Source: a virus
DNA: 59,621 nucleotides
Strand: one strand, 5' to 3'
IMG/VR virus record: IMGVR_UViG_3300042197_002679
Span: 1-59,621 of that record
Part shown: positions 31,238 to 59,621 of the stretch, piece after piece
Layout: every line of letters starts with the position of its first letter
Numbering within the stretch: the first letter of the stretch is position 1
Notes under the pieces: generated by a model
Told to the model about the DNA's origin: nothing
The model's database searches: none
What the model saw: only the letters and a program-made list of their open reading frames with translations
Translations under genes and position numbers: made by a program

Positions 31238-31379
31238 GCAATTTCAAGAAAATTGGAGCGATAAATATAAAAAGAGTATTGATTGCTCCAATCCAAAAGG
31301 ATTTTCTCAACGTGCTCATTGTGCGGGAAGAATAAAAAGAGCAAAAAGTGAAAAAACAAAATCCAAATCAATTGAATGA
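31224..31379 (+). CDS. Small basic Cys/His protein, 51 aa, possible capsid-targeted
   Basis: The ATG at 31224 lies within the end of gp16 and the frame ends with TGA at 31377-31379, overlapping the next gene start. The product begins MKTFKQFQENW, similar to a T4 capsid targeting sequence but without the ideal IxE/LxE cleavage site. It then has CSNPKGFSQRAHCAGRIKRA, a Cys/His motif that I recall on many marine phage proteins, and a Lys/Ser tail. It is strongly basic and may bind DNA. Function is unknown. The short GATAAATA inside it (31260-31267) is probably accidental. Confidence 0.65.
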   Translation: MKTFKQFQENWSDKYKKSIDCSNPKGFSQRAHCAGRIKRAKSEKTKSKSIE

Positions 31380-32968
31380 ATAGATCAAAGTTTTCACACG
31401 TAACAAGGCATCTAAAAGGAAAACAACATCAGTTAGATCCTAATTTAGATTTAAAACAATTAGTTCATCACGCAACAGTTCAATATGTTGATCGTGATGC
31501 AGATGGTGACGTTGACGTGTATGATAACCCCAAAAAGAAAACACCCGATGAAAATCCAAAAGATATTAATGTTGGATATGGATCTAAAAAATTGATCAGA
31601 AAACAAAAGGGTGAAGTAAAACATACTAAAGTGGGCATGGCTTTTGAAGATCTTCGCAAATGGTTTGGTAAAGGTGATGAAGGTGGTGTTGGCGGCGGCG
31701 GGTGGGATAGGTATAACACACAAGGAGAACGTATTGGCAAGTGTGCTCGTGAACCGGGAGAAGCAAAACCAAAATGTTTATCAAAAGAAAAAGCAGCAAA
31801 AATGACTAAAGATCAAATTTCTGCTGCGGTAAAGAGAAAGCGTAAAGAGGATCCAGTGGCAGATCGTCCAGGAAAAGGAGGTAAACCAATTATGTCTTCT
31901 AACAAAATTAATGAAAATATTTTGGAAGAAAAAAGATATTGTATGAAATGTAAAAAAAGAGAATCCCGTAATGAATGCTCATATGGACCAGAAATGTGGG
32001 ACAAAATGACAGTGAAAGGATTTATGGAAAGCATGAAACCTGAACCAGACCACGAACATTCAATGATACGTTCAGAACTTGAAACAATTAGGGCAGCAGT
32101 TAATAGATTGAAAAAGAAAATGAAAGGCGAAGGTAATGTAGAAGCATGGGTGCAATCAAAAATTACAAAAGCTGCTGACTATATCGATTCTGCTGCAGAC
32201 TATGTTGAGAGTGGAGAGCATAATGTCCACAATTCAATGGATGAAGAAAAAGGTCCTTGTTGGGTCGGATACAAGCAAGTTGGCATGAAAAAGAAAAATG
32301 GTAAAATGGTTCCCAATTGTGTTCCAGAAAATACTGAATATATTATGGAAAAGAATGCTCCAACAAATCCAAAATTATGGGCAAAGTGGAAAGCAAAAGC
32401 AAAGGCAAAATTTGACGTTTATCCATCCGCATATGCTAATGGGTGGGCAGCAAAAGGATATAAATCTGATGGCGGTGAATGGAAATCTGTAAATGAAAAT
32501 CTTAAAGAAGCAGTTCGTATTTCATCTAAAACGGGAAATATTATTTTAGTAACTTTATCTTGGAGAGGAAGATACTACATGATAAAAATGTTTTTCCCCC
32601 AGATTTCCAAACCAAATCGTCAAGAAGTACAAGATCAAATTTCTAAAGTTTATCCTGGTTCCAGAGTTCAATCATATCATATTTCAGACATCAAACCAGG
32701 TGAACAGTTTTTACAAACTGAAAGTGCTGCATGGACTCGTGAGGAAGGGAAAAACAAAGAAGGTGGTTTGAATGAAAAAGGTCGTAAGTCCTACGAAAGA
32801 GAAAATCCAGGAAGTGATCTTAAAGCACCTTCAAAGAAAGTTGGTAATAAGCGTCGTGCTTCATTCTGTGCCAGAATGAGTGGGATGAAAAAGAAACTAA
32901 CTTCTGCCAAAACTGCTAACGATCCTAATAGCAGAATCAATAAGTCCCTTAGAGCTTGGAACTGCTAA
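31376..32968 (+). CDS. Mosaic Lys/Cys-rich protein between terminase genes, 530 aa
   Basis: A string of small modules rather than one fold. In order: residues 20-60 with VQYVDRDADGDVDVYDN; 85-175, a Gly/Lys-rich part with GGVGGGGWDRYNTQGE and KPKCLSKEKAAKM (like the family I remember as DUF5872); about 190-215 with CMKCKKRESRNEC; about 265-290 VQSKITKAADYIDSAADYVE; about 300-320 GPCWVGYKQVGMKKKNGKM; 330-375 KFDVYPSAYANGWAAKGYK; 385-450 a beta domain ending VYPGSRVQSYHISDIKPGE; and 455-530 RRASFCARMSGMKKKLTSAK ending SLRAWNC (like DUF6321). Such modules recur singly in many marine phages and large viruses. The role is unknown; a packaging-associated or virion-carried nucleic-acid-binding protein is a guess. 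Its GC content is higher than the tail genes. Confidence 0.75.
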   Translation: MNRSKFSHVTRHLKGKQHQLDPNLDLKQLVHHATVQYVDRDADGDVDVYDNPKKKTPDENPKDINVGYGSKKLIRKQKGEVKHTKVGMAFEDLRKWFGKGDEGGVGGGGWDRYNTQGERIGKCAREPGEAKPKCLSKEKAAKMTKDQISAAVKRKRKEDPVADRPGKGGKPIMSSNKINENILEEKRYCMKCKKRESRNECSYGPEMWDKMTVKGFMESMKPEPDHEHSMIRSELETIRAAVNRLKKKMKGEGNVEAWVQSKITKAADYIDSAADYVESGEHNVHNSMDEEKGPCWVGYKQVGMKKKNGKMVPNCVPENTEYIMEKNAPTNPKLWAKWKAKAKAKFDVYPSAYANGWAAKGYKSDGGEWKSVNENLKEAVRISSKTGNIILVTLSWRGRYYMIKMFFPQISKPNRQEVQDQISKVYPGSRVQSYHISDIKPGEQFLQTESAAWTREEGKNKEGGLNEKGRKSYERENPGSDLKAPSKKVGNKRRASFCARMSGMKKKLTSAKTANDPNSRINKSLRAWNC

Positions 32969-32969
32969 A

Positions 32970-33293
32970 ATGAAATCCTTCAAACAGTTTTTATCAGAAA
33001 GTATCACCATTAACGGTGACTTCAACGGAACCTTAAATGTAGGTGGCCCATCTCAAGAACCACAACCTCAAACAGAAGAATTTTCTGCTGATATTGTGTA
33101 TATGGGAAATCTTCACAGGATTTCTATGGTGACTGAAAGTGGAGTTCCTTCAAAAATTGAACTCACCGGGTATCTTCAGAAAGAATATCCAGGTTCTATT
33201 GTTCATCATATATACGTTAAAGAGAATTCAAAAGGTTCTATCAAAGTAACAGACGACAAAAGATATCATCCAGCAAAGTTAGATTGGATTTAG
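32970..33293 (+). CDS. Candidate capsid-targeted internal protein, 107 aa
   Basis: ATG at 32970, one base after the mosaic gene. The N-terminus MKSFKQFLSES fits a T4-type capsid targeting sequence ending in the gp21 cleavage motif LxE|S (cut expected after residue 10). The mature part has a glycine-rich beta segment (TINGDFNGTLNVGG), a Pro/Gln/Glu linker, then a beta domain (SADIVYMGNLHRISMV ... YLQKEYPGSIVHHIYV). That domain resembles the PGS domain of the preceding mosaic protein. No known enzymatic motif is present. It may be packaged in the head and delivered with the genome; this rests on the N-terminal motif and location only. Confidence 0.7.
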   Translation: MKSFKQFLSESITINGDFNGTLNVGGPSQEPQPQTEEFSADIVYMGNLHRISMVTESGVPSKIELTGYLQKEYPGSIVHHIYVKENSKGSIKVTDDKRYHPAKLDWI

Positions 33294-41343: not shown

Positions 41344-41895
41344 ATGGCTCATAGACCAGTTGGGGCTGGATCCTCATTTACATTTACTGCTGGAACCGCA
41401 TCAACATCATCCACATTTTCCGTCCAATCTAATGTGTTGAGAGTTGTTGCAGTTGGAGCGGCAGCACATATTTCAGTTGGATCAACTCCTTCAGCAACTT
41501 CATCGGATTATTATGTTCCGTCTGGTGGAACTGCAACTCTTGCATTAACTAAAGCATCAAATCGTGTCGTAGGGGTCATAACTGGCACAACAACTGTAGT
41601 TACAGTTCCAGAGGGAACACAAGTTCCCTTTGGTGTTGATGATTATGTTACTTTGTCCGTAAGTGGACAATCATATTACAACTTCACTCACCAAAAAGTT
41701 TTGTCGGTGGATACTACATCCAATATTGATGGATATTTCCAAAAAAGAATGACAATTAATTACAATTCAAGTGGCATTGTAACTGCATTTTCCTCAGTAG
41801 ATGCAACAATTAGTGCCTCAAATAAAGTTTCTGCATATGGTTTAGGTTCTGGAACTGTTTACTATCAACAAGTACAAATTTCGGGAGATGCTTAA
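41344..41895 (+). CDS. Beta-rich head-cluster protein, 183 aa
   Basis: The product is rich in Ser, Thr, Val and Gly with alternating hydrophobic residues, so it is almost all beta. The N-terminus (AHRPVGAGSSFTFTAGTAST) has no signal peptide. The body includes SVQSNVLRVVAVGAAAHISV and SDYYVPSGGTATLAL, and then a YFQKRMTINYNSSGIVTAFS stretch. It occupies the slot of T4 gene 68 but does not resemble that core protein. A capsid decoration or other structural role is likely from its fold type and its own late promoter. It overlaps the upstream alternative start of gp21. Confidence 0.65.
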   Translation: MAHRPVGAGSSFTFTAGTASTSSTFSVQSNVLRVVAVGAAAHISVGSTPSATSSDYYVPSGGTATLALTKASNRVVGVITGTTTVVTVPEGTQVPFGVDDYVTLSVSGQSYYNFTHQKVLSVDTTSNIDGYFQKRMTINYNSSGIVTAFSSVDATISASNKVSAYGLGSGTVYYQQVQISGDA

Positions 41896-41896
41896 A

Positions 41897-42547
41897 ATGA
41901 AACTAATCACCGAAGAAATCGAAAAGGTAGAAGTTATTACCGAAAGCATAAATGGTAGAAAAAATCTTTTTATTAAAGGGATTTTTCTCCAGGCAGAACA
42001 AGTGAACAGAAACGGTAGAATGTACCGTATGCCTGTAATGGAAAGAGAAGTAAAGCGTTATACTGAACAATACGTGAATAAAGGTCGTGCTTTAGGTGAA
42101 CTTGGACATCCAGACGGTCCTACAGTAAATCTTGATAGGGTTTCACATAAGATTACAGAACTTTACCGTGATGGAAATAATTTTGTTGGTAAAGCGCAAA
42201 TTTTATCCACTCCAATGGGCAAAATTGCAGAATCACTTTTAAAGGAGGGTGTTTGTCTTGGCGTCTCTTCTCGTGGTATAGGATCATTAAGAGAGACCCG
42301 TGAAGGATATAAAGAAGTTGGTGAAGATTTTATGCTTGCAACTGCTGCAGACATTGTTGCAGATCCTTCAGCGCCTGATGCTTTTGTTCAGGGAATTATG
42401 GAGGGGAAGGAATGGATATGGGACGGTAACATTTTAAGAGAAAAAGTAGCAAACAATACTAAAAATAAAATAAATACTCTTGTTGATGAAGGTATTCTTG
42501 AAGAATACAAACTGTCATTATTTAATGAGTTTTTAAATAAACTGTAA
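41897..42547 (+). CDS. gp21: Prohead core protease gp21
   Basis: Homolog of T4 gp21, the serine protease that matures the prohead by cutting after Glu in (I/L)xE|(A/S/G). I choose the ATG at 41897 because GGAG (41884-41887) precedes it by nine bases; ATG 41888 would add three residues. Visible catalytic candidates are His71 in ELGHPDG and Ser124/125 in LGVSSRGIG, both in the expected order. RNGRMYR near residue 40 and DIVADPSAPDAFV near 158 are other family landmarks. The N-terminus itself contains VITE|S, a possible self-cleavage site. gp22 and gp23, its substrates, follow. Confidence 0.93.
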   Translation: MKLITEEIEKVEVITESINGRKNLFIKGIFLQAEQVNRNGRMYRMPVMEREVKRYTEQYVNKGRALGELGHPDGPTVNLDRVSHKITELYRDGNNFVGKAQILSTPMGKIAESLLKEGVCLGVSSRGIGSLRETREGYKEVGEDFMLATAADIVADPSAPDAFVQGIMEGKEWIWDGNILREKVANNTKNKINTLVDEGILEEYKLSLFNEFLNKL

Positions 42548-42601: not shown

Positions 42602-43741
42602 ATGTCTCGTGGTACACAATTACAAGAAATGGAAGTAGGCACTAAGCAATCCAAAACTGCAGTTAATGCTGGAGCAAAAGCAGCAGAACCAATGCCTAGC
42701 CTTTCAGGATTAACACCAGGACAAACTGGTTCTTGGGAAGATCTTGGAGGACCTACACCAGAAAATTATAAGTCTGATGATGATTCTGCAAAGTTAAAAA
42801 CTCCAGGAACATCTCTTAAGCAAGTTAAGGATGTTGTTAATAAAGGAGCAACACCTGCAGACTCAATGAAAGGTGTAAAAGAGGAGGAAGAACTTGAAGA
42901 TGATGAAGTGATTGCCGAGTCTGAAGAGGAAGAACTTGAAGATGATGAAGTGATTGCCGAGTCTGATGATGAAGAGGAAGAAGGTGATGATGAAGAGGAA
43001 GAAGGTGATGAGGAAGATTATGATATTGAAGAAGATGTAAATGCACTTCTTGCTGGAGAGAATCTTTCCGAAGAATTCCAAGAAAAAGCGAAAACAATTT
43101 TTGAGGCAGCAATTACTTCAAGAATTTCCAAAATTCAAGAATCACTCGAAAATCAATACGCAGTTGCACTTAAAGAAGAAGTAGAAGAGATTAAAGAAAT
43201 TCTTTCCGAAAGAGTAGATTCTTATTTGGAATATGTTTCTGATGAATGGTTCCAAGAGAACGCATTAGTTGTTGAAAAAGGTCTAAAGGAGGAGTTGACT
43301 GAATCCTTTATGACTGGTCTGAAAGGACTTTTTGAAGAACATTATGTATCAATCCCTGATGATAAATATGATGTACTTGAGAGCATGGTAGAAAAACTTG
43401 ATGAAATGGAGACAAAACTCAACGAGCAAATAGAAAAAAATGTTTCCCTAAACAAGCGTCTCGCAGAGTCGGTTGCTGATGGAATCTTTGAACAGGTTTC
43501 TGAGGGTCTTGCGGCTACTCAGAAAGACAAGCTCGCTTCACTTGCCGAAAGTGTTGAGTTTGAAAGTGAAGACGAATATCGTGAAAAACTGGAGACTTTG
43601 AGGGAAGCATATTTCCCAACTAAAGGATTTTCTCCATCTGCTAAATCTGAGTCCCTCTCTGAGGGTGTAGACAATTCACCTGAAAATATTTCAGGCACTA
43701 TGGCTGCATATTTGAACACTCTTTCAAAATTTAGCAAATAA
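42602..43741 (+). CDS. gp22: Prohead scaffold protein gp22
   Basis: Positional and compositional homolog of T4 gp22 (269 aa; here 379), the main core protein around which gp23 assembles. It has an N-terminal flexible Gly/Pro/Lys part and an extremely acidic region (residues 93-140) with a 14-residue repeat EEELEDDEVIAESE, twice. Then come long amphipathic helices (SISxIQ-type, residues 145-320) as expected for a coiled scaffold. Several gp21-type sites (IAE|S in both repeats, IFE|A near 160) show it is degraded during maturation. It lies between gp21 and gp23. Confidence 0.88.
   Translation: MSRGTQLQEMEVGTKQSKTAVNAGAKAAEPMPSLSGLTPGQTGSWEDLGGPTPENYKSDDDSAKLKTPGTSLKQVKDVVNKGATPADSMKGVKEEEELEDDEVIAESEEEELEDDEVIAESDDEEEEGDDEEEEGDEEDYDIEEDVNALLAGENLSEEFQEKAKTIFEAAITSRISKIQESLENQYAVALKEEVEEIKEILSERVDSYLEYVSDEWFQENALVVEKGLKEELTESFMTGLKGLFEEHYVSIPDDKYDVLESMVEKLDEMETKLNEQIEKNVSLNKRLAESVADGIFEQVSEGLAATQKDKLASLAESVEFESEDEYREKLETLREAYFPTKGFSPSAKSESLSEGVDNSPENISGTMAAYLNTLSKFSK
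42884..43006 (+). repeat. Tandem repeats inside gp22 (2 x 42 bp, then 2 x 21 bp)
   Basis: Unit 42884-42925 is repeated at 42926-42967 with one base difference in the last codon. GATGATGAAGAGGAAGAAGGT at 42965-42985 (21 bases, seven codons) is then repeated at 42986-43006. All are in frame and encode acidic peptides. The 42-bp unit carries one gp21 cleavage motif. Confidence 0.9.
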
Positions 43742-43794: not shown

Positions 43795-45228
43795 ATGTTC
43801 CATTCAGAGCAATTGCAGGAAAAGTGGGCACCTCTTCTTAACTATGATGGACTTGATCCAATCAAAGATTCACACAGAAGAGCAGTAACCGCTGTCCTGT
43901 TAGAAAACCAAGAAAGATTTTTAAGAGAGCAATCAGCATTTGATCATGGATCAATGGGAATGCTGATGGAATCTCCAACCAACAGCGGCAACGCTGCTGG
44001 TGCCCAGGGCGCTTTCGGTGGAGACGCTACCGCCGGTGGTCCTGTTGCAGGTTTTGATCCTGTTCTTATTTCATTGATCAGACGTTCAATGCCTAATCTG
44101 GTCGCTTACGACCTCGCTGGCGTTCAACCAATGAGTGGTCCTACTGGACTAATCTTCGCAATGCGTTCACGTTATACTAATCAGTCTGGCACTGAAGCAT
44201 TTTATAACGAATCTGACACTACATTTTCAGGCACAGATTCTGGTTTTGATACTACACTTACTCGTGATTTCTCCGACGTTAATGCTGGTATTGGTACAAC
44301 TATCCAGGCCGGTACCAATCCTTCAGTTCTAAATCCAGTTGGAACCGCAACTTCAACGGCATATAACGTTGGACAAGGTATGCCTACTGGTGATGCAGAA
44401 AATCTTGATAGTGGTTCGAACGCATTCAATCAAATGGCTTTCTCAATCGAGAAAGTTACTGTTACTGCTAAGTCAAGAGCACTGAAAGCAGAGTACAGTC
44501 TTGAGCTTGCACAAGACCTTAAAGCAATTCACGGTCTGAACGCTGAAGCGGAATTGGCAAATATTCTGTCAACTGAGATTCTTGCCGAAATCAACCGTGA
44601 AGTTATCAGAACCATTTATAAGGTTGCTGAGCAAGGTGCCGTTCAAAACGTTGCAACTGCTGGTGTATTTGACCTTGATGTTGATTCAAATGGTCGTTGG
44701 TCAGTTGAAAAGTTTAAGGGTCTACTCTTCCAGATCGAGAGAGATGCAAACGCAATCGCACAAAGAACTCGTCGTGGAAAGGGCAACATCATCCTATGCT
44801 CTGCTGATGTCGCTTCCGCTTTAACGATGGCTGGCGTGCTTGATTACACCCCTGCCCTCAATGCTAACCTAAACGTTGATGACACGGGCAACACCTTTGC
44901 TGGTGTTCTTCAAGGTAAGTATCGAGTTTATATTGATCCTTATGCTGCTAACCTAACATCGGGTAATGCAACTCCAGGAAACCAATACTACGTTGTTGGA
45001 TATAAGGGTTCTTCACCTTATGACGCAGGTCTGTTTTATTGCCCATATGTTCCTCTCCAAATGGTTCGTGCCGTTGGTGAGAACTCCTTCCAACCAAAGA
45101 TTGGCTTTAAGACCCGTTACGGTCTTGTTGCTAATCCATTTGCAGAAGGAACCGATCAGGGTCTTGGTCGTCTCAAAGTTAACACTAACCGCTATTATAG
45201 AAGAGTTGCGGTCAAAAATCTCATGTAA
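43795..45228 (+). CDS. gp23: Major capsid protein gp23
   Basis: Homolog of T4 gp23 (521 aa; here 477), HK97-fold capsid subunit. Landmarks are SLIRRSMPNLVAYDLAGVQP followed by MSGPTGLIFAMRSRY, the standard gp23 primer region. KVTVTAKSRALKAEYSLELA and DLKAIHGLNAEAELANILST follow. The C-terminal NPFAEGTDQGLGRLKVNTNR and YYRRVAVKNLM end the protein. A gp21 site, MLMESP, gives cleavage between Glu59 and Ser60, so the first 59 residues are a removable delta domain, close to the 65 of T4. Codon use is more C/G-rich than its neighbours, as in a very highly expressed gene. A terminator follows. Confidence 0.97.
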   Translation: MFHSEQLQEKWAPLLNYDGLDPIKDSHRRAVTAVLLENQERFLREQSAFDHGSMGMLMESPTNSGNAAGAQGAFGGDATAGGPVAGFDPVLISLIRRSMPNLVAYDLAGVQPMSGPTGLIFAMRSRYTNQSGTEAFYNESDTTFSGTDSGFDTTLTRDFSDVNAGIGTTIQAGTNPSVLNPVGTATSTAYNVGQGMPTGDAENLDSGSNAFNQMAFSIEKVTVTAKSRALKAEYSLELAQDLKAIHGLNAEAELANILSTEILAEINREVIRTIYKVAEQGAVQNVATAGVFDLDVDSNGRWSVEKFKGLLFQIERDANAIAQRTRRGKGNIILCSADVASALTMAGVLDYTPALNANLNVDDTGNTFAGVLQGKYRVYIDPYAANLTSGNATPGNQYYVVGYKGSSPYDAGLFYCPYVPLQMVRAVGENSFQPKIGFKTRYGLVANPFAEGTDQGLGRLKVNTNRYYRRVAVKNLM

Positions 45229-45281: not shown

Positions 45282-45302
45282 ATATAGTTAAAAACTTCGG
45301 TG

Positions 45303-45779
45303 ATGTTTTATATTTACAAATCTACCAATAAAATTAATAATAAATTTTATATTGGTAGATGCAAAGGTCCTATAGAAAACAGAGAATATAAACACTGGTG
45401 GTACGCTACCAATAAAAACACTAATGCACCGTTCTCAAATGCTTTACGTAAGTATGGACGAGATAATTTTATATGGGAAATTATAGAAGAAACTGATGAA
45501 AATAATAATGGAGAAAGAGAAATATACTGGATAGATAAACTAAAACCATACTACAACGCTACTTTAGGGGGAGATGGTGGAACACTTGGTCGGCAATGCC
45601 CAGAACATGTAAAGGAAGCAACAAGGCAATCAAGAATAGTATCCGTTAAAGATAGAAAAACTGGAAAAATTTATAAATCTATGAAGGACGCCAGAAAAGA
45701 TATTGGAGTTTTGGAAAGTAGTATAAGTAGGTCTATAAAATACAATAGACCCGGAAGTAGATGGGAAAGAGTTATCTAA
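45303..45779 (+). CDS. Free-standing GIY-YIG homing endonuclease
   Basis: A mobile DNA-cutting enzyme with no apparent intron. The N-terminal domain has FYIYKSTNKINNKFYIGRC, the GIY...YIG core of the family. It then has a conserved Arg/His-rich helix, and EREIYWIDKLKPYYNATLGG, which carries the catalytic Glu region and the N-rich loop usual in phage GIY-YIG enzymes. The C-terminus (GKIYKSMKDARKDIGVLESS and ISRSIKYN) matches a NUMOD1-like DNA-binding helix. I start at the ATG at 45303; GTG 45300 is in frame. It sits between gp23 and gp3 with a late box on each side, so both its own expression and that of gp3 are kept after the insertion. Confidence 0.88.
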   Translation: MFYIYKSTNKINNKFYIGRCKGPIENREYKHWWYATNKNTNAPFSNALRKYGRDNFIWEIIEETDENNNGEREIYWIDKLKPYYNATLGGDGGTLGRQCPEHVKEATRQSRIVSVKDRKTGKIYKSMKDARKDIGVLESSISRSIKYNRPGSRWERVI

Positions 45780-52508: not shown

Positions 52509-54633
52509 AGATTTGGTGGTGGAGCATAAGAAAGTTTCTACTGCCTGTTTTAATGTTCATACTCGTGTATTGACTCTTCCTTTGTGGGAAAAGGCAAGTA
52601 ATACTGTTTATGATTTGCTTGTTGGGCACGAAGTTGGACACGCGATTTTTACTCCAGATGAGGACTGGACTCAATCTGCAAAAATTCCTCCTCAATTTGT
52701 AAATGTAGTTGAGGATGCTCGTATTGAAAAATTGATGAAACGTAAGTATATGGGACTTGCAAAAACCTTCTTCAACGGATATAAAGAATTGAACGATCAA
52801 GATTTCTTTCAGTTGAATGATGAAAATCTGTCTAAATTCAATCTTGCCGATCGTGCAAATTTGTGGTTTAAAGTTGGTAACTATATTGATGTTCCTATCC
52901 AGAGGGGTAAAGAGACTGAAATTATAAACCTAATTGCTGATACTGAAACTTTTGCTGATGTTTTGGTTGCTGCAGAAGAACTTTATAAGTATTGTAAGGA
53001 AGAAAAGGAACAACAGCAAAAAGTTCCTGACTTTGATTCTCATGATCAACAAGGTGATTCTCAATCTTCTACTAATCAACCAGTAGAAACCGATGACTCC
53101 TCTCCAGAAGAAGAAGGTGAGAGTGATAAGTCACAACCAAATCCCGATAAATCTTATGGTGGCACTGCTCAAGGTAATGAGGTTCAAAATACTGTCAATG
53201 ATGAAAAAGAACCTGAAATTCTTACTGCAGATTCTTTAGAGAATAAACTTCGTGATTTGATCAATCACGATGGATATGAAAACGTTTATGTTGAGATTCC
53301 TCAAGTCAATCTTGAGACTGTAATTGGTAAAAATGCAGATGTTCATAAGGATATTGATTCTACTTTTAATCATCAGCAAGAAAAAAATAATCAACTTTGC
53401 GATGAAAGAGATTGGGATCGTGTAGATCTTTTTAAATATGCAGATGAGGACTATAAAAAGTTTAAACTATCTGCTCAAAAGGAAGTCAACTATCTGGTGA
53501 AGGAGTTTGAGTGCCGTAAGGCAGCAGATTCTTATGCTCGCGCTACTACTGCTCGCACAGGTGTTCTTGATACATCTCGTCTTCATTCTTACAAATATAC
53601 AGAAGATTTGTTTAAAAAAGTTTCTGTGATTCCTGATGGGAAAAATCACGGGTTGGTTTTCATTTTGGATTGGAGTGGATCTATGTCTCACGTTCTTCAA
53701 GATACTTGTAAGCAACTTTTTAATCTTGTTTGGTTCTGTAAAAAAGTTGCGATTCCTTTTGAAGTTTATGCTTTTACAAATGAATGGCGTCGTGGTGAAT
53801 ATGATTACGAAACTCAAACTTATAGTCCAGCTGATCGAACTTCTCATTATGAAGCAAAGGAAGGATTGATTCAGGTTGAAGAATCATTTGCTTTAATGAA
53901 TCTTCTTACCAGTAAAGTTTCTGGTAAAGAGTTGGAACATCAAATGCTTAATGTTTGGCGTCTTGCCGTTTGTTTCGGTGATTCTTATCGTGCTCAATAC
54001 ACATATTCAAATCGTTTGGCTCTTTCTGGAACTCCTTTGAATGAAGCATTGATGAGTCTTCATCAAATTCTTCCTAAGTTTCAAAAAGAAAATAAACTTC
54101 AAAAAGTTCAATGCATTGTGCTGACTGATGGTGAGGCAAATTATCCTCCTTATCACGTAGAAATCAAACGTGGATCTGATTCTTACATTGGCACTCGTGG
54201 TATTAATCCAGATAAAACTTTTCTTCGAGATCGTAAACTTGGCATCACCTACAAGTTTGATTATGGGTATCATCAATTTACTGAGGCTCTTCTTCGTAAC
54301 CTGAAAGATAAGTTTTCTTCAGTAAACTTTATTGGTATTCGTGTTCTTGAAGGACGAAATGCAAATCGTTTCATCGGTCTTTATCACAATCAAAGTGATA
54401 AGCAATATGAAGTGATTCAAAATGATTGGAAGAAATTGAAAAGTTTTACCATCACCAACTCTGGATATGATGCTTATTTTGGACTTTCTTCTTCTGCACT
54501 TTCTCAAGATGCAGAGTTTGATGTTGCTGATGATGCTACTAAATCACAAATCAAATCTGCTTTTGTTAAATCTCTAAAAACTAAAAAATTGAATAAAAAA
54601 GTTCTTGGGGAGTTTATTTCTCTTGTTGTCTAA
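52432..54633 (+). CDS. VWA-domain protein with HExxH metalloprotease motif (CobT/MoxR-partner type), 733 aa
   Basis: I start at the ATG at 52432 (MGSYETKQMPVRHEI); the frame continues upstream but only with non-ATG starts. Residues 66-70 are HEVGH in LLVGHEVGHAIF, a zinc-protease motif, with a VVEDARIEKLMKRKYMGL segment 22 residues on that could give a third ligand (Glu94). A low-complexity acidic linker (about 195-260) follows. The C-terminal VWA domain has the MIDAS residues DWSGS at 413-417, SGTPLNEAL later and LTDGEANYP after that. This plan resembles CobT-type or DUF2201-type partners of MoxR AAA+ ATPases. A matching ATPase gene lies at 55739. The substrate is unknown; a metal-chelatase or complex-assembly role is inferred. 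Confidence 0.85.
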   Translation: MGSYETKQMPVRHEIKSQLAKLLATEDLVVEHKKVSTACFNVHTRVLTLPLWEKASNTVYDLLVGHEVGHAIFTPDEDWTQSAKIPPQFVNVVEDARIEKLMKRKYMGLAKTFFNGYKELNDQDFFQLNDENLSKFNLADRANLWFKVGNYIDVPIQRGKETEIINLIADTETFADVLVAAEELYKYCKEEKEQQQKVPDFDSHDQQGDSQSSTNQPVETDDSSPEEEGESDKSQPNPDKSYGGTAQGNEVQNTVNDEKEPEILTADSLENKLRDLINHDGYENVYVEIPQVNLETVIGKNADVHKDIDSTFNHQQEKNNQLCDERDWDRVDLFKYADEDYKKFKLSAQKEVNYLVKEFECRKAADSYARATTARTGVLDTSRLHSYKYTEDLFKKVSVIPDGKNHGLVFILDWSGSMSHVLQDTCKQLFNLVWFCKKVAIPFEVYAFTNEWRRGEYDYETQTYSPADRTSHYEAKEGLIQVEESFALMNLLTSKVSGKELEHQMLNVWRLAVCFGDSYRAQYTYSNRLALSGTPLNEALMSLHQILPKFQKENKLQKVQCIVLTDGEANYPPYHVEIKRGSDSYIGTRGINPDKTFLRDRKLGITYKFDYGYHQFTEALLRNLKDKFSSVNFIGIRVLEGRNANRFIGLYHNQSDKQYEVIQNDWKKLKSFTITNSGYDAYFGLSSSALSQDAEFDVADDATKSQIKSAFVKSLKTKKLNKKVLGEFISLVV

Positions 54634-54636
54634 ATA
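54629..54636 (+). promoter_or_regulatory. Late promoter box TCTAAATA
   Basis: It contains the TAA stop of the VWA gene (54631-54633) and lies 21 bases before the ATG of the candidate internal head protein. Confidence 0.6.
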
Positions 54637-54656: not shown

Positions 54657-55484
54657 ATGAAAACCTACAGAGAGTTTATTGCTGAATCTGGTGACTGGTG
54701 GCATCCCGATCCAGTAAAAGATAAACTTATGCCCGGTAGAGGACCTAAACTTCGCGCTCGTCAAGATCGTGAACCAAAACCAGATTATAGTAATAAACTA
54801 AAACCAGGTGAAACATATATGCAGTTTGCGAAACGCAAAACTAGAGGTGAATCTGTTGAGTATGTTGATGAATTATTTGTAACAAAAAAGTCTTCAGAAG
54901 ATCAAAAAAAGAAAAAAGTTGCAGAACTTATTCGTTTAATGAAAGCTGCAAAAGATCCACTTTCGGATGCTCCAGCTAGACGTAAAAAGATAAACGCAAA
55001 TGAAGAATATATTGATGAAACTTCTCTTACTCGTGTAATGAGTAAGTCTAAGAAAGGTGGAATGGCAATTATGTCTGCTCAAAGAGGAGATAAATCAAAA
55101 GCAGAAAATAAAGCACGTTCAAAACAACTTGAAAAGGATGTAAGAGGTGCTGGTCTTCCTGGACCAACTAAAGTTGCTGGCAGATATACTGAAAATCCAG
55201 GAACTCCTCAGGAGAAAAAAGTAGGAGAGAAATCTCACATTATCACTCCTGGCAAAAAAGGTAAAAGAAAGTTTAAAAAGGCAATTGAAAAACTTGGTAA
55301 AAAGTATGATCAAGACTCGGTATTACTTCAACGTAAAGCGGGTGGAAGTTCTACTCTCAAAGGAACTTCAAAGACATCTTGGCCAGGTAAAGGAAAGAAT
55401 GTTAAAATAGGTAGTATGAAACCAGGTAGAACTGGTGAGTTTGATACCAAAGTTAAGAACAAAACATTTACAGTTGAGGATTAA
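54657..55484 (+). CDS. Candidate internal head protein with capsid targeting sequence, 275 aa
   Basis: The N-terminus MKTYREFIAES differs by one residue within the first ten from the T4 internal-protein targeting sequence (MKTYQEFIAE as I remember it). It ends in the gp21 cleavage motif IAE|S. The mature part starts SGDWWHPDPVKDKLMPGRG, is very basic (many Lys/Arg), and looks mostly disordered until about residue 170. A C-terminal domain follows: SHIITPGKKGKRKFKKAIEK, then YDQDSVLLQRKAGGSSTL, then GRTGEFDTKVKNKTFTVED. It has its own late box, in a region otherwise made of early-type genes, which fits a virion protein. Probably packaged in the head and injected. Its target is unknown. Confidence 0.75.
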   Translation: MKTYREFIAESGDWWHPDPVKDKLMPGRGPKLRARQDREPKPDYSNKLKPGETYMQFAKRKTRGESVEYVDELFVTKKSSEDQKKKKVAELIRLMKAAKDPLSDAPARRKKINANEEYIDETSLTRVMSKSKKGGMAIMSAQRGDKSKAENKARSKQLEKDVRGAGLPGPTKVAGRYTENPGTPQEKKVGEKSHIITPGKKGKRKFKKAIEKLGKKYDQDSVLLQRKAGGSSTLKGTSKTSWPGKGKNVKIGSMKPGRTGEFDTKVKNKTFTVED

Positions 55485-58558: not shown

Positions 58559-59503
58559 ATGACAAGTGATTTTCTTTTTGTGGAAAAATATCGTCCTCAA
58601 GTGATTGATGATTGTATTCTTCCTGATGAAACTAAAAAAACATTTAAGGAGTTCGTTGAGAAGGGAGAGATTCCAAATCTTCTTCTTGCTGGACCTCCTG
58701 GAATTGGTAAAACAACTATTGCAAAGGCACTATGTAACGAACTGGGGGCAGATTTTTATGTCATCAACGGATCCGACGAAGGACGTTTCTTGGATACTGT
58801 ACGGAACCAAGCGAAGAACTTTGCTTCGACCGTTTCACTTACGGGATCTTCTAAACACAAAGTCATCATCATCGATGAGGCTGATAACACGGGGAACGAC
58901 GTTCAACTCCTTCTACGGGCAAATATTGAGGCATTTTATAACAACTGCCGATTTATTTTTACCTGTAACTACAAAAACAAAATCATCGAACCCCTTCATT
59001 CTCGATGTGCAGTCATTGACTTTACTATCAAAGGAAAACAAAAGGCACAACTTGCAGGAGCATTCTTTAAGAGACTTCAAACAATCTTGGATCAAGAAAA
59101 GATTGAGTATGATCCAAAAGTTCTTGCAGAGTTGGTATCGAAACACTTCCCAGACTTCCGTAGAGTCCTCAATGAATGTCAAAGATATTCTACGGGAGGA
59201 AAAATTGACTCGGCAATTCTTGCATCTTTCTCAGACATCTCTGTAAATGAACTTCTTAAAAATCTTAAGGAAAAGAACTTCACTGAAGTACGTAAATGGG
59301 TTGTATCCAATCTTGACAATGACAGCGGTGTTATTCTTCGTAGGGTTTATGATGCACTTTACGACTCAGTTGTTCCAGGTTCTATTCCTGCTGCTGTTCT
59401 TATTATTGCTAAGTATCAATATCAGATTGCATTCGTTTGTGACCAAGAAATAAATCTGCTTGCTGCCCTTACAGAAATTATGTGTGAAGTTGAGTTTAAA
59501 TGA
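58559..59503 (+). CDS. gp44: Clamp loader large subunit gp44
   Basis: Homolog of T4 gp44 (319 aa; here 314), the ATPase of the gp44/gp62 complex that opens gp45. The usual VEKYRPQ start, Walker A GPPGIGKT at 45-52, Walker B IIIDEAD at 103-109, sensor-1 FIFTCNYKNK at about 132 and the arginine-finger SRC at 148-150 are all present. FPDFRRVLNECQRYS near 198 (sensor 2) follows. The C-terminus forms the collar domain. In T4 gene 62 follows at once; here a Dam-type methyltransferase gene overlaps the stop (ATGA), so gp62 lies elsewhere or further on. Confidence 0.95.
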   Translation: MTSDFLFVEKYRPQVIDDCILPDETKKTFKEFVEKGEIPNLLLAGPPGIGKTTIAKALCNELGADFYVINGSDEGRFLDTVRNQAKNFASTVSLTGSSKHKVIIIDEADNTGNDVQLLLRANIEAFYNNCRFIFTCNYKNKIIEPLHSRCAVIDFTIKGKQKAQLAGAFFKRLQTILDQEKIEYDPKVLAELVSKHFPDFRRVLNECQRYSTGGKIDSAILASFSDISVNELLKNLKEKNFTEVRKWVVSNLDNDSGVILRRVYDALYDSVVPGSIPAAVLIIAKYQYQIAFVCDQEINLLAALTEIMCEVEFK

Positions 59504-59621
59504 AGTCTCTTAAAACACCCTTGAGGTATCCAGGCGGAAAGTCCCGTGCTTGCACCAAGATGGATCCTTATTTTCCAGATCTCCGCAACTATGATGAATT
59601 CCGTGAACCATTTCTTGGTGG
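59500..59621 (+). CDS. dam: Start of a Dam-type (D12 class) DNA adenine methyltransferase, truncated by window edge
   Basis: ATG at 59500 overlaps the gp44 stop. The 40 residues seen carry two signatures of D12-class N6-adenine methyltransferases: LRYPGGKSRACTKM near the start (family WxGGK motif, S-adenosylmethionine binding) and FREPFLGG at the edge of the window (motif I, PFxGGG). The catalytic DPPY lies beyond the window. It probably methylates GATC or a related site, as T4 Dam does, to protect the phage DNA or mark it. No terminator or promoter separates it from gp44. Confidence 0.8.
   Translation, partial: MKSLKTPLRYPGGKSRACTKMDPYFPDLRNYDEFREPFLG

Follow-up and report, generated by a model that had tools for sequence, protein, structure and literature searches.

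In phage T4, the internal head proteins IPI, IPII and IPIII carry a ten-residue N-terminal capsid targeting sequence (hereafter the tag). In the IPIII tag, residues 4 and 7 serve targeting and residues 8 and 10 processing, and the idea that such a tag permits T4-like phages to load diverse proteins has been stated (PMC9026906). The prohead protease gp21 cleaves after motifs of the [ILVMF]xE type, and the gp22 core is thought to be what tagged proteins bind. S-adenosylmethionine (SAM) lyases, or SAMases, which as trimers degrade SAM to methylthioadenosine and homoserine lactone, are on the other hand represented by the T3 enzyme and Svi3-3. SAM loss aids T3 against SAM-dependent defence, namely restriction and bacteriophage exclusion (BREX) (PMC7877911, PMC12255297). 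Finally, ORF6 of Synechococcus phage S-CREM2, annotated as “SAM hydrolase (virion protein)”, was found in purified virions; the S-CREM2 publication leaves unremarked the targeting sequence, the cut sites and the conservation of tag and lyase across cyanophages. Here, we analysed a viral DNA of 59,621 nucleotides (IMG/VR record IMGVR_UViG_3300042197_002679, positions 1 to 59,621; hereafter the window) and focus on its gene at 54657..55484 (+), which encodes, in this order, a tag, a linker and a predicted SAM lyase. From its sequence, the product is probably packaged in the head and injected as a SAM lyase, disarming SAM-dependent defence of the restriction or BREX type. Three elements were already known on their own: the T4 tag, the lyase family and a single detection in virions. 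What appears to be new is the union of tag and lyase, its conservation and the use of the tag to find other cargo.

A capsid targeting sequence close to that of T4

The open reading frame (ORF) at 54657-55484 starts with ATG and encodes 275 amino acids, its translation beginning MKTYREFIAESGDWWHPD. The first ten residues, MKTYREFIAE (54657..54686, +), fit the pattern M-K-x-[FY]-x-x-F-[ILV]-x-E and are followed by SGDWWHPDP; T4 IPII and IPIII both begin with MKTYQEFIAE, followed by A. The original prediction, made from the sequence alone, had pointed to a near-exact T4 targeting sequence ending in IAE/S (a slash marks the cut). Indeed, nine of the ten residues are identical to those of IPII and IPIII, the sole difference being residue 5. 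By analogy with IPIII, Tyr4 and Phe7 would serve targeting, and Ile8 and Glu10 processing. In the six frames of the window, the strict pattern occurs in two places only, 54657-55484 and 32970-33293. At the codon level, the pattern gave 17 matches in 12 complete phage records (T4 and 11 cyanophages) and none in the reversed control, so that chance is not a fair explanation of the tag.

The resemblance to the T4 internal proteins extends to the gp21-type cut site, the basic product, a late-promoter-like box and the presence of protease and scaffold in the genome. In contrast, no similarity to IPIII was found past the tag (best BLASTP E = 2.8) and, unlike in the T4 internal proteins, the cargo is an enzyme domain preceded by a second gp21-type site. 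This predicted site, IDE/T (residues 119-122, 55011..55022, +; context YIDE/T at 118-122), lies at the lyase boundary. A motif [ILVMF]xE stands directly before the lyase in all 76 distinct relatives that have a separate linker, which are not independent cases because the region is homologous. In view of this recurrence, a second gp21 cut at the lyase boundary is likely, and the linker may thus be removed too.

The linker itself (residues 11-121, 54687..55019, +) is different or missing in other relatives. It starts with a GDWWHPDP module that is common to larger proteins of the cyanophage gp16-gp17 region, and has matches to gp114-type proteins from other cyanophages. The gp114-like protein encoded in the window (31376-32968) was considered as its source and rejected, there being no similarity between the two.

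The cargo is a predicted SAM lyase

The enzyme identity of the cargo was absent from the original prediction. The remainder of the protein (residues 122-275, 55020..55481, +) matches the Pfam S-adenosylmethionine lyase profile PF23780 over residues 138-261 (E = 3.6e-14, 53.3 bits; curated cut-off 28 bits). Residues G175, Y177, E191 and Q219 are invariant in a 37-member domain alignment with identities down to about 30%. They correspond, when mapped by motif order and spacing rather than by superposition, to G56, Y58, E69 and Q104 of Svi3-3, the ligand-binding residues common to known SAMases (PMC7877911).

Neither the protein nor the family profile retrieved a relative from Protein Data Bank (PDB) sequences; relatives emerged from structure comparison alone. 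Foldseek comparison of an AlphaFold2 model with the PDB returned the T3 SAM lyase (8bb1, 1.9e-5, and 7ock) as sole matches below 1e-3, followed by Svi3-3 (6zm9 and 6znb), all further matches lying above 0.08. The modelled fold thus appears to be ferredoxin-like, of the T3/Svi3-3 SAM lyase type and nearest to these two enzymes. A search of NCBIfam with the protein gave nothing usable, and a PADLOC match to Cas7b (0.018) was rejected as noise. Altogether, profile match, catalytic G/Y/E/Q residues and predicted fold are shared with the T3 enzyme and Svi3-3, and point to an S-adenosylmethionine lyase with predicted SAM-degrading activity.

The same superfamily includes the AcrIIIB4-like SAM-AMP lyases, which differ in substrate. 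An injected anti-CRISPR enzyme that cleaves SAM-AMP, which some type III CRISPR systems use as a second messenger, would fit the shared fold and Glu/Gln pair. One phage enzyme that has an additional N-terminal domain, a part that the window protein also has, is SAM-AMP-specific (PMC12255297). Nevertheless, the cysteine that is strictly conserved in SAM-AMP lyases (C66; PMC12255297) is missing from the window protein, which has no cysteine anywhere in its sequence and is therefore disfavoured as a SAM-AMP lyase. As its fold is moreover nearest to the T3 and Svi3-3 SAM lyases, we consider a SAM-AMP-cleaving enzyme improbable.

The product is also very basic, as had been noted from the sequence, with an isoelectric point (pI) of 10.07 and 68 Lys and Arg against 36 Asp and Glu. 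A pI of 10.1 would suit an internal head protein that condenses DNA, since the T4 internal proteins are basic too, the lyase domain then having lost its activity or never used it. The catalytic residues, however, stay invariant across 37 diverse members with identities as low as about 30%, which speaks against this and makes a mere DNA-condensing role very unlikely.

Tag and lyase are conserved while the linker varies

Relatives were gathered from IMG/VR with four queries, yielding about 260 environmental loci, 259 of which have a complete 5′ end. A targeting sequence precedes the lyase in 206 of these 259, at a spacing of zero, about ten or up to about 270 residues. The ten-residue tag and the lyase thus appear, from sequence comparison, to be conserved across relatives while the linker varies freely. 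Homologs without the motif had been named in advance as evidence against the original prediction; most relatives retain the tag, and most of the exceptions belong to one fusion type or are near-matches. Indeed, among the 53 without a standard tag, 31 are of the fusion type found in S-WAM1, where the lyase forms the C-terminal end of a large protein and follows an internal KSFKEFLEE, and several others are near-matches such as MITFKEFMQE.

Late expression of the tag-lyase gene is predicted from a conserved late-type box. In the window, a late-promoter-like box, TCTAAATA (54629..54636, +), places CTAAATA at -27, that is 27 nucleotides before the start codon, and structural genes of the window have boxes of late type at similar distances. 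Among the gene starts examined between 48272 and 58559, such a box was found only before 54657-55484. The neighbours, assigned by reading, are non-structural: gp46/47-type recombination genes, a large protein, a MoxR/CobS-like ATPase, the clamp and the clamp loader. Both the late box and its setting among non-structural genes, as first proposed, were recovered. Of 138 distinct regions upstream of homologs, 117 have a late-type box between -45 and -15, versus 21 of 1198 control windows.

Tagged proteins are found in virions

The homolog ORF6 of S-CREM2 has the N-terminus MKDFDSFLEE, which fits the tag. It was detected by mass spectrometry in caesium chloride-purified virions, 19 unique peptides giving a coverage of 26.3%, and the authors proposed that it may enter the cell with the virion and counter restriction (PMC10665884). 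Packaging of the tagged lyase in the head is thus well supported, the virion detection being for this S-CREM2 relative and not for the window protein.

We also asked how the tag relates to the S-CREM2 virion proteome. A first regular expression was not fully independent of this phage, as the ORF6 N-terminus had already been seen when it was made; a position profile was therefore trained on IMG/VR relatives only, without S-CREM2, and applied to the 219 S-CREM2 proteins. The top five, kinase ORF14, cytidylyltransferase ORF154, ORF136, ORF6 and ORF13, scored from 6.4 to -0.1, the next protein scoring -4.2. All five are among the 52 proteins of the virion proteome (p = 6.5e-4), the value being p = 4.5e-4 when the comparison is confined to non-structural proteins 78 or more amino acids long. 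In S-SCSM1, the pattern matches an NMNAT annotated as a virion protein and a small protein of unassigned function, and in S-SM1 its one match is the cytidyltransferase T4-GC190, which is virion-detected (PMC3037559); the NMNAT-type matches of S-CREM2, S-SCSM1 and S-SM1 possibly reflect one evolutionary event.

Several observations weigh against a head-packaged lyase. The 31 proteins of the S-WAM1 fusion type have no N-terminal tag, the relatives in S-H34 and P-TIM68 have imperfect tags (MKNFEEFKDQ; Asp at position 10), and the confidence of the structural model is only moderate (predicted local distance difference test, pLDDT, 68; predicted template modelling score, pTM, 0.61). Furthermore, the S-CREM2 authors noted that such proteins may co-purify with virions (PMC10665884). 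Detection by mass spectrometry could then reflect a contaminating abundant cell protein, the N-terminus being fortuitous or a feature of cytoplasmic significance, with action of the protein only inside the cell, late in infection. Against this stand the conservation of the tag despite variable linkers, the late box, the presence of a relative in virions and the fact that tag scores pick out virion proteins, and of the alternatives considered here we find this one the least credible.

In T4, the pattern matches IPII, IPIII and the uncharacterised gp61.1 (genome 18966-19130, L342; 54 amino acids). The latter starts with MKTFKEFIKE, a near-perfect tag, and is a possible unrecognised internal head protein. 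In S-CREM2, the Cas9-like nuclease ORF12 (OR473000, 7704-10313), present in virions, has an internal tag-like LRFASFMAE/A at residues 17-25 without its own Met; its start may be misannotated, or its tag internal.

Proposed mode of action

For the window protein, we infer cleavage, injection, lyase activity and an anti-defence role, and can propose the following scheme. A three-part head protein, in which a tag and a variable linker precede a SAM lyase resembling those of T3 and Svi3-3, would be made late and brought into the prohead by binding of its tag to the gp22 core. Once the prohead has closed, gp21 would cut off the tag after Glu10 and probably cut after Glu121 also, leaving free lyase in the head, and DNA packaging would follow. 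The free lyase would then enter the cell together with the DNA and split SAM to methylthioadenosine and homoserine lactone, with SAM being lost in the first minutes; it may also bind methionine adenosyltransferase, like the T3 enzyme. SAM-dependent defences (type I/III restriction, BREX) would in this way be disarmed ahead of any phage gene expression. The suggestion that the gene encodes a candidate anti-defence effector gains direct support from the cargo being a SAM lyase, the class of the T3 anti-restriction and anti-BREX protein.

A packaged SAM lyase could also serve metabolic takeover, in that SAM depletion or inhibition of MetK would halt methylation and the synthesis of polyamines in the host at an early stage of infection. 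Indeed, the T3 SAM lyase inhibits methionine adenosyltransferase too (PMC8406200; complexes PDB 7ock and 8bb1), and other tagged proteins detected in virions, an NMNAT-like cytidylyltransferase and a kinase, look metabolic. But the best-studied role of the SAM lyase class is anti-restriction and anti-BREX (PMC7877911; PMC12255297, which cites Andriianov 2023), and takeover as the main role seems to us rather doubtful.

Disarming of SAM-dependent defence by an injected lyase would differ from what is known for T3. The T3 SAM lyase is untagged and the first protein made after infection (PMC8406200), whereas the window lyase, with its late box and its head address, would act without new synthesis. 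Known SAM lyases are made only after infection, leaving the phage genome exposed meanwhile; a head-carried lyase, if confirmed, would be active from the moment of entry.

This storage also bears on DNA methylation by the phage itself. The five SAM-lyase phages examined carry, without exception, a gene for a DNA adenine methylase, as do most cyanophages without the lyase. Heads storing the lyase would separate it in time from this SAM-needing enzyme, so that the two would not compete and the paradox would be removed. At the end of the window, the truncated last ORF (59500-59619, MKSLKTPLRYPGGKSR...) is similar to the beginning of DNA adenine methylases from phages, matching S-PM2 Dam at E = 1e-7 in a two-sequence comparison.

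The tag as a marker of other cargo

We lean towards the view that the ten-residue tag serves T4-like phages, and cyanobacterial ones in particular, as a general and modular address for delivery, by which unrelated enzymes are packed, freed by gp21 and injected. A tag-pattern scan of viral contigs, which gives minimum counts and does not sample at random, yielded at least 128 tagged starts, and 125 of the matches listed open frames of at least 51 codons. Among the matches listed, the tagged proteins fall into about 80 unrelated groups, whose representatives share only M1, K2, T3, F7 and E10, positions partly fixed by the pattern. Recognisable cargo among these matches includes ADP-ribosyltransferases, SAM lyase, NMNAT-like nucleotidyltransferases, an HD hydrolase, an acetyltransferase and an HNH nuclease. 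The scan extends the idea of PMC9026906 to a search tool: if the delivery-address reading is true, it would provide a catalogue of injected effectors for an entire group of phages. The tag moreover predicts which unassigned cyanophage genes make injected proteins, and this is checkable in existing proteomes.

Two tagged proteins resemble ADP-ribosyltransferases (PF18760), one at 9.7e-24 (L443, 6037-6813) and one weakly at 0.0026 (L437, 897-1478); they are reminiscent of T4 Alt, which is injected too. On another viral contig (L432, 6505-9422), four tagged ORFs lie in tandem within 3 kb, in what looks like an effector cassette.

Other features of the window

The second tagged protein of the window (32970..33293, +) starts with MKSFKQFLSE/S, has 107 amino acids and belongs to phrog_1742, with no function assigned. 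It adjoins the gp114-like protein, and its S-SCSM1 homolog (ORF30) is tagged too. The head genes comprise a gp21-type prohead protease of the Peptidase_S77 family (41888..42547, +; PF03420 at 6.1e-39, phrog_207 at 1.1e-81), a gp22-type head scaffold (42602..43741, +; PF25623 at 1.8e-79) and the gp23 major capsid protein (43795..45228, +; PF07068 at 1.3e-150). The latter has a gp21-type site, LME/S, ahead of its folded part, and its nearest counterparts in the phage collection are those of T4-like Synechococcus phages, with about 77-78% DNA identity. Immediately past the major capsid gene, a GIY-YIG-like ORF (45300-45779, by reading) probably encodes a homing endonuclease.
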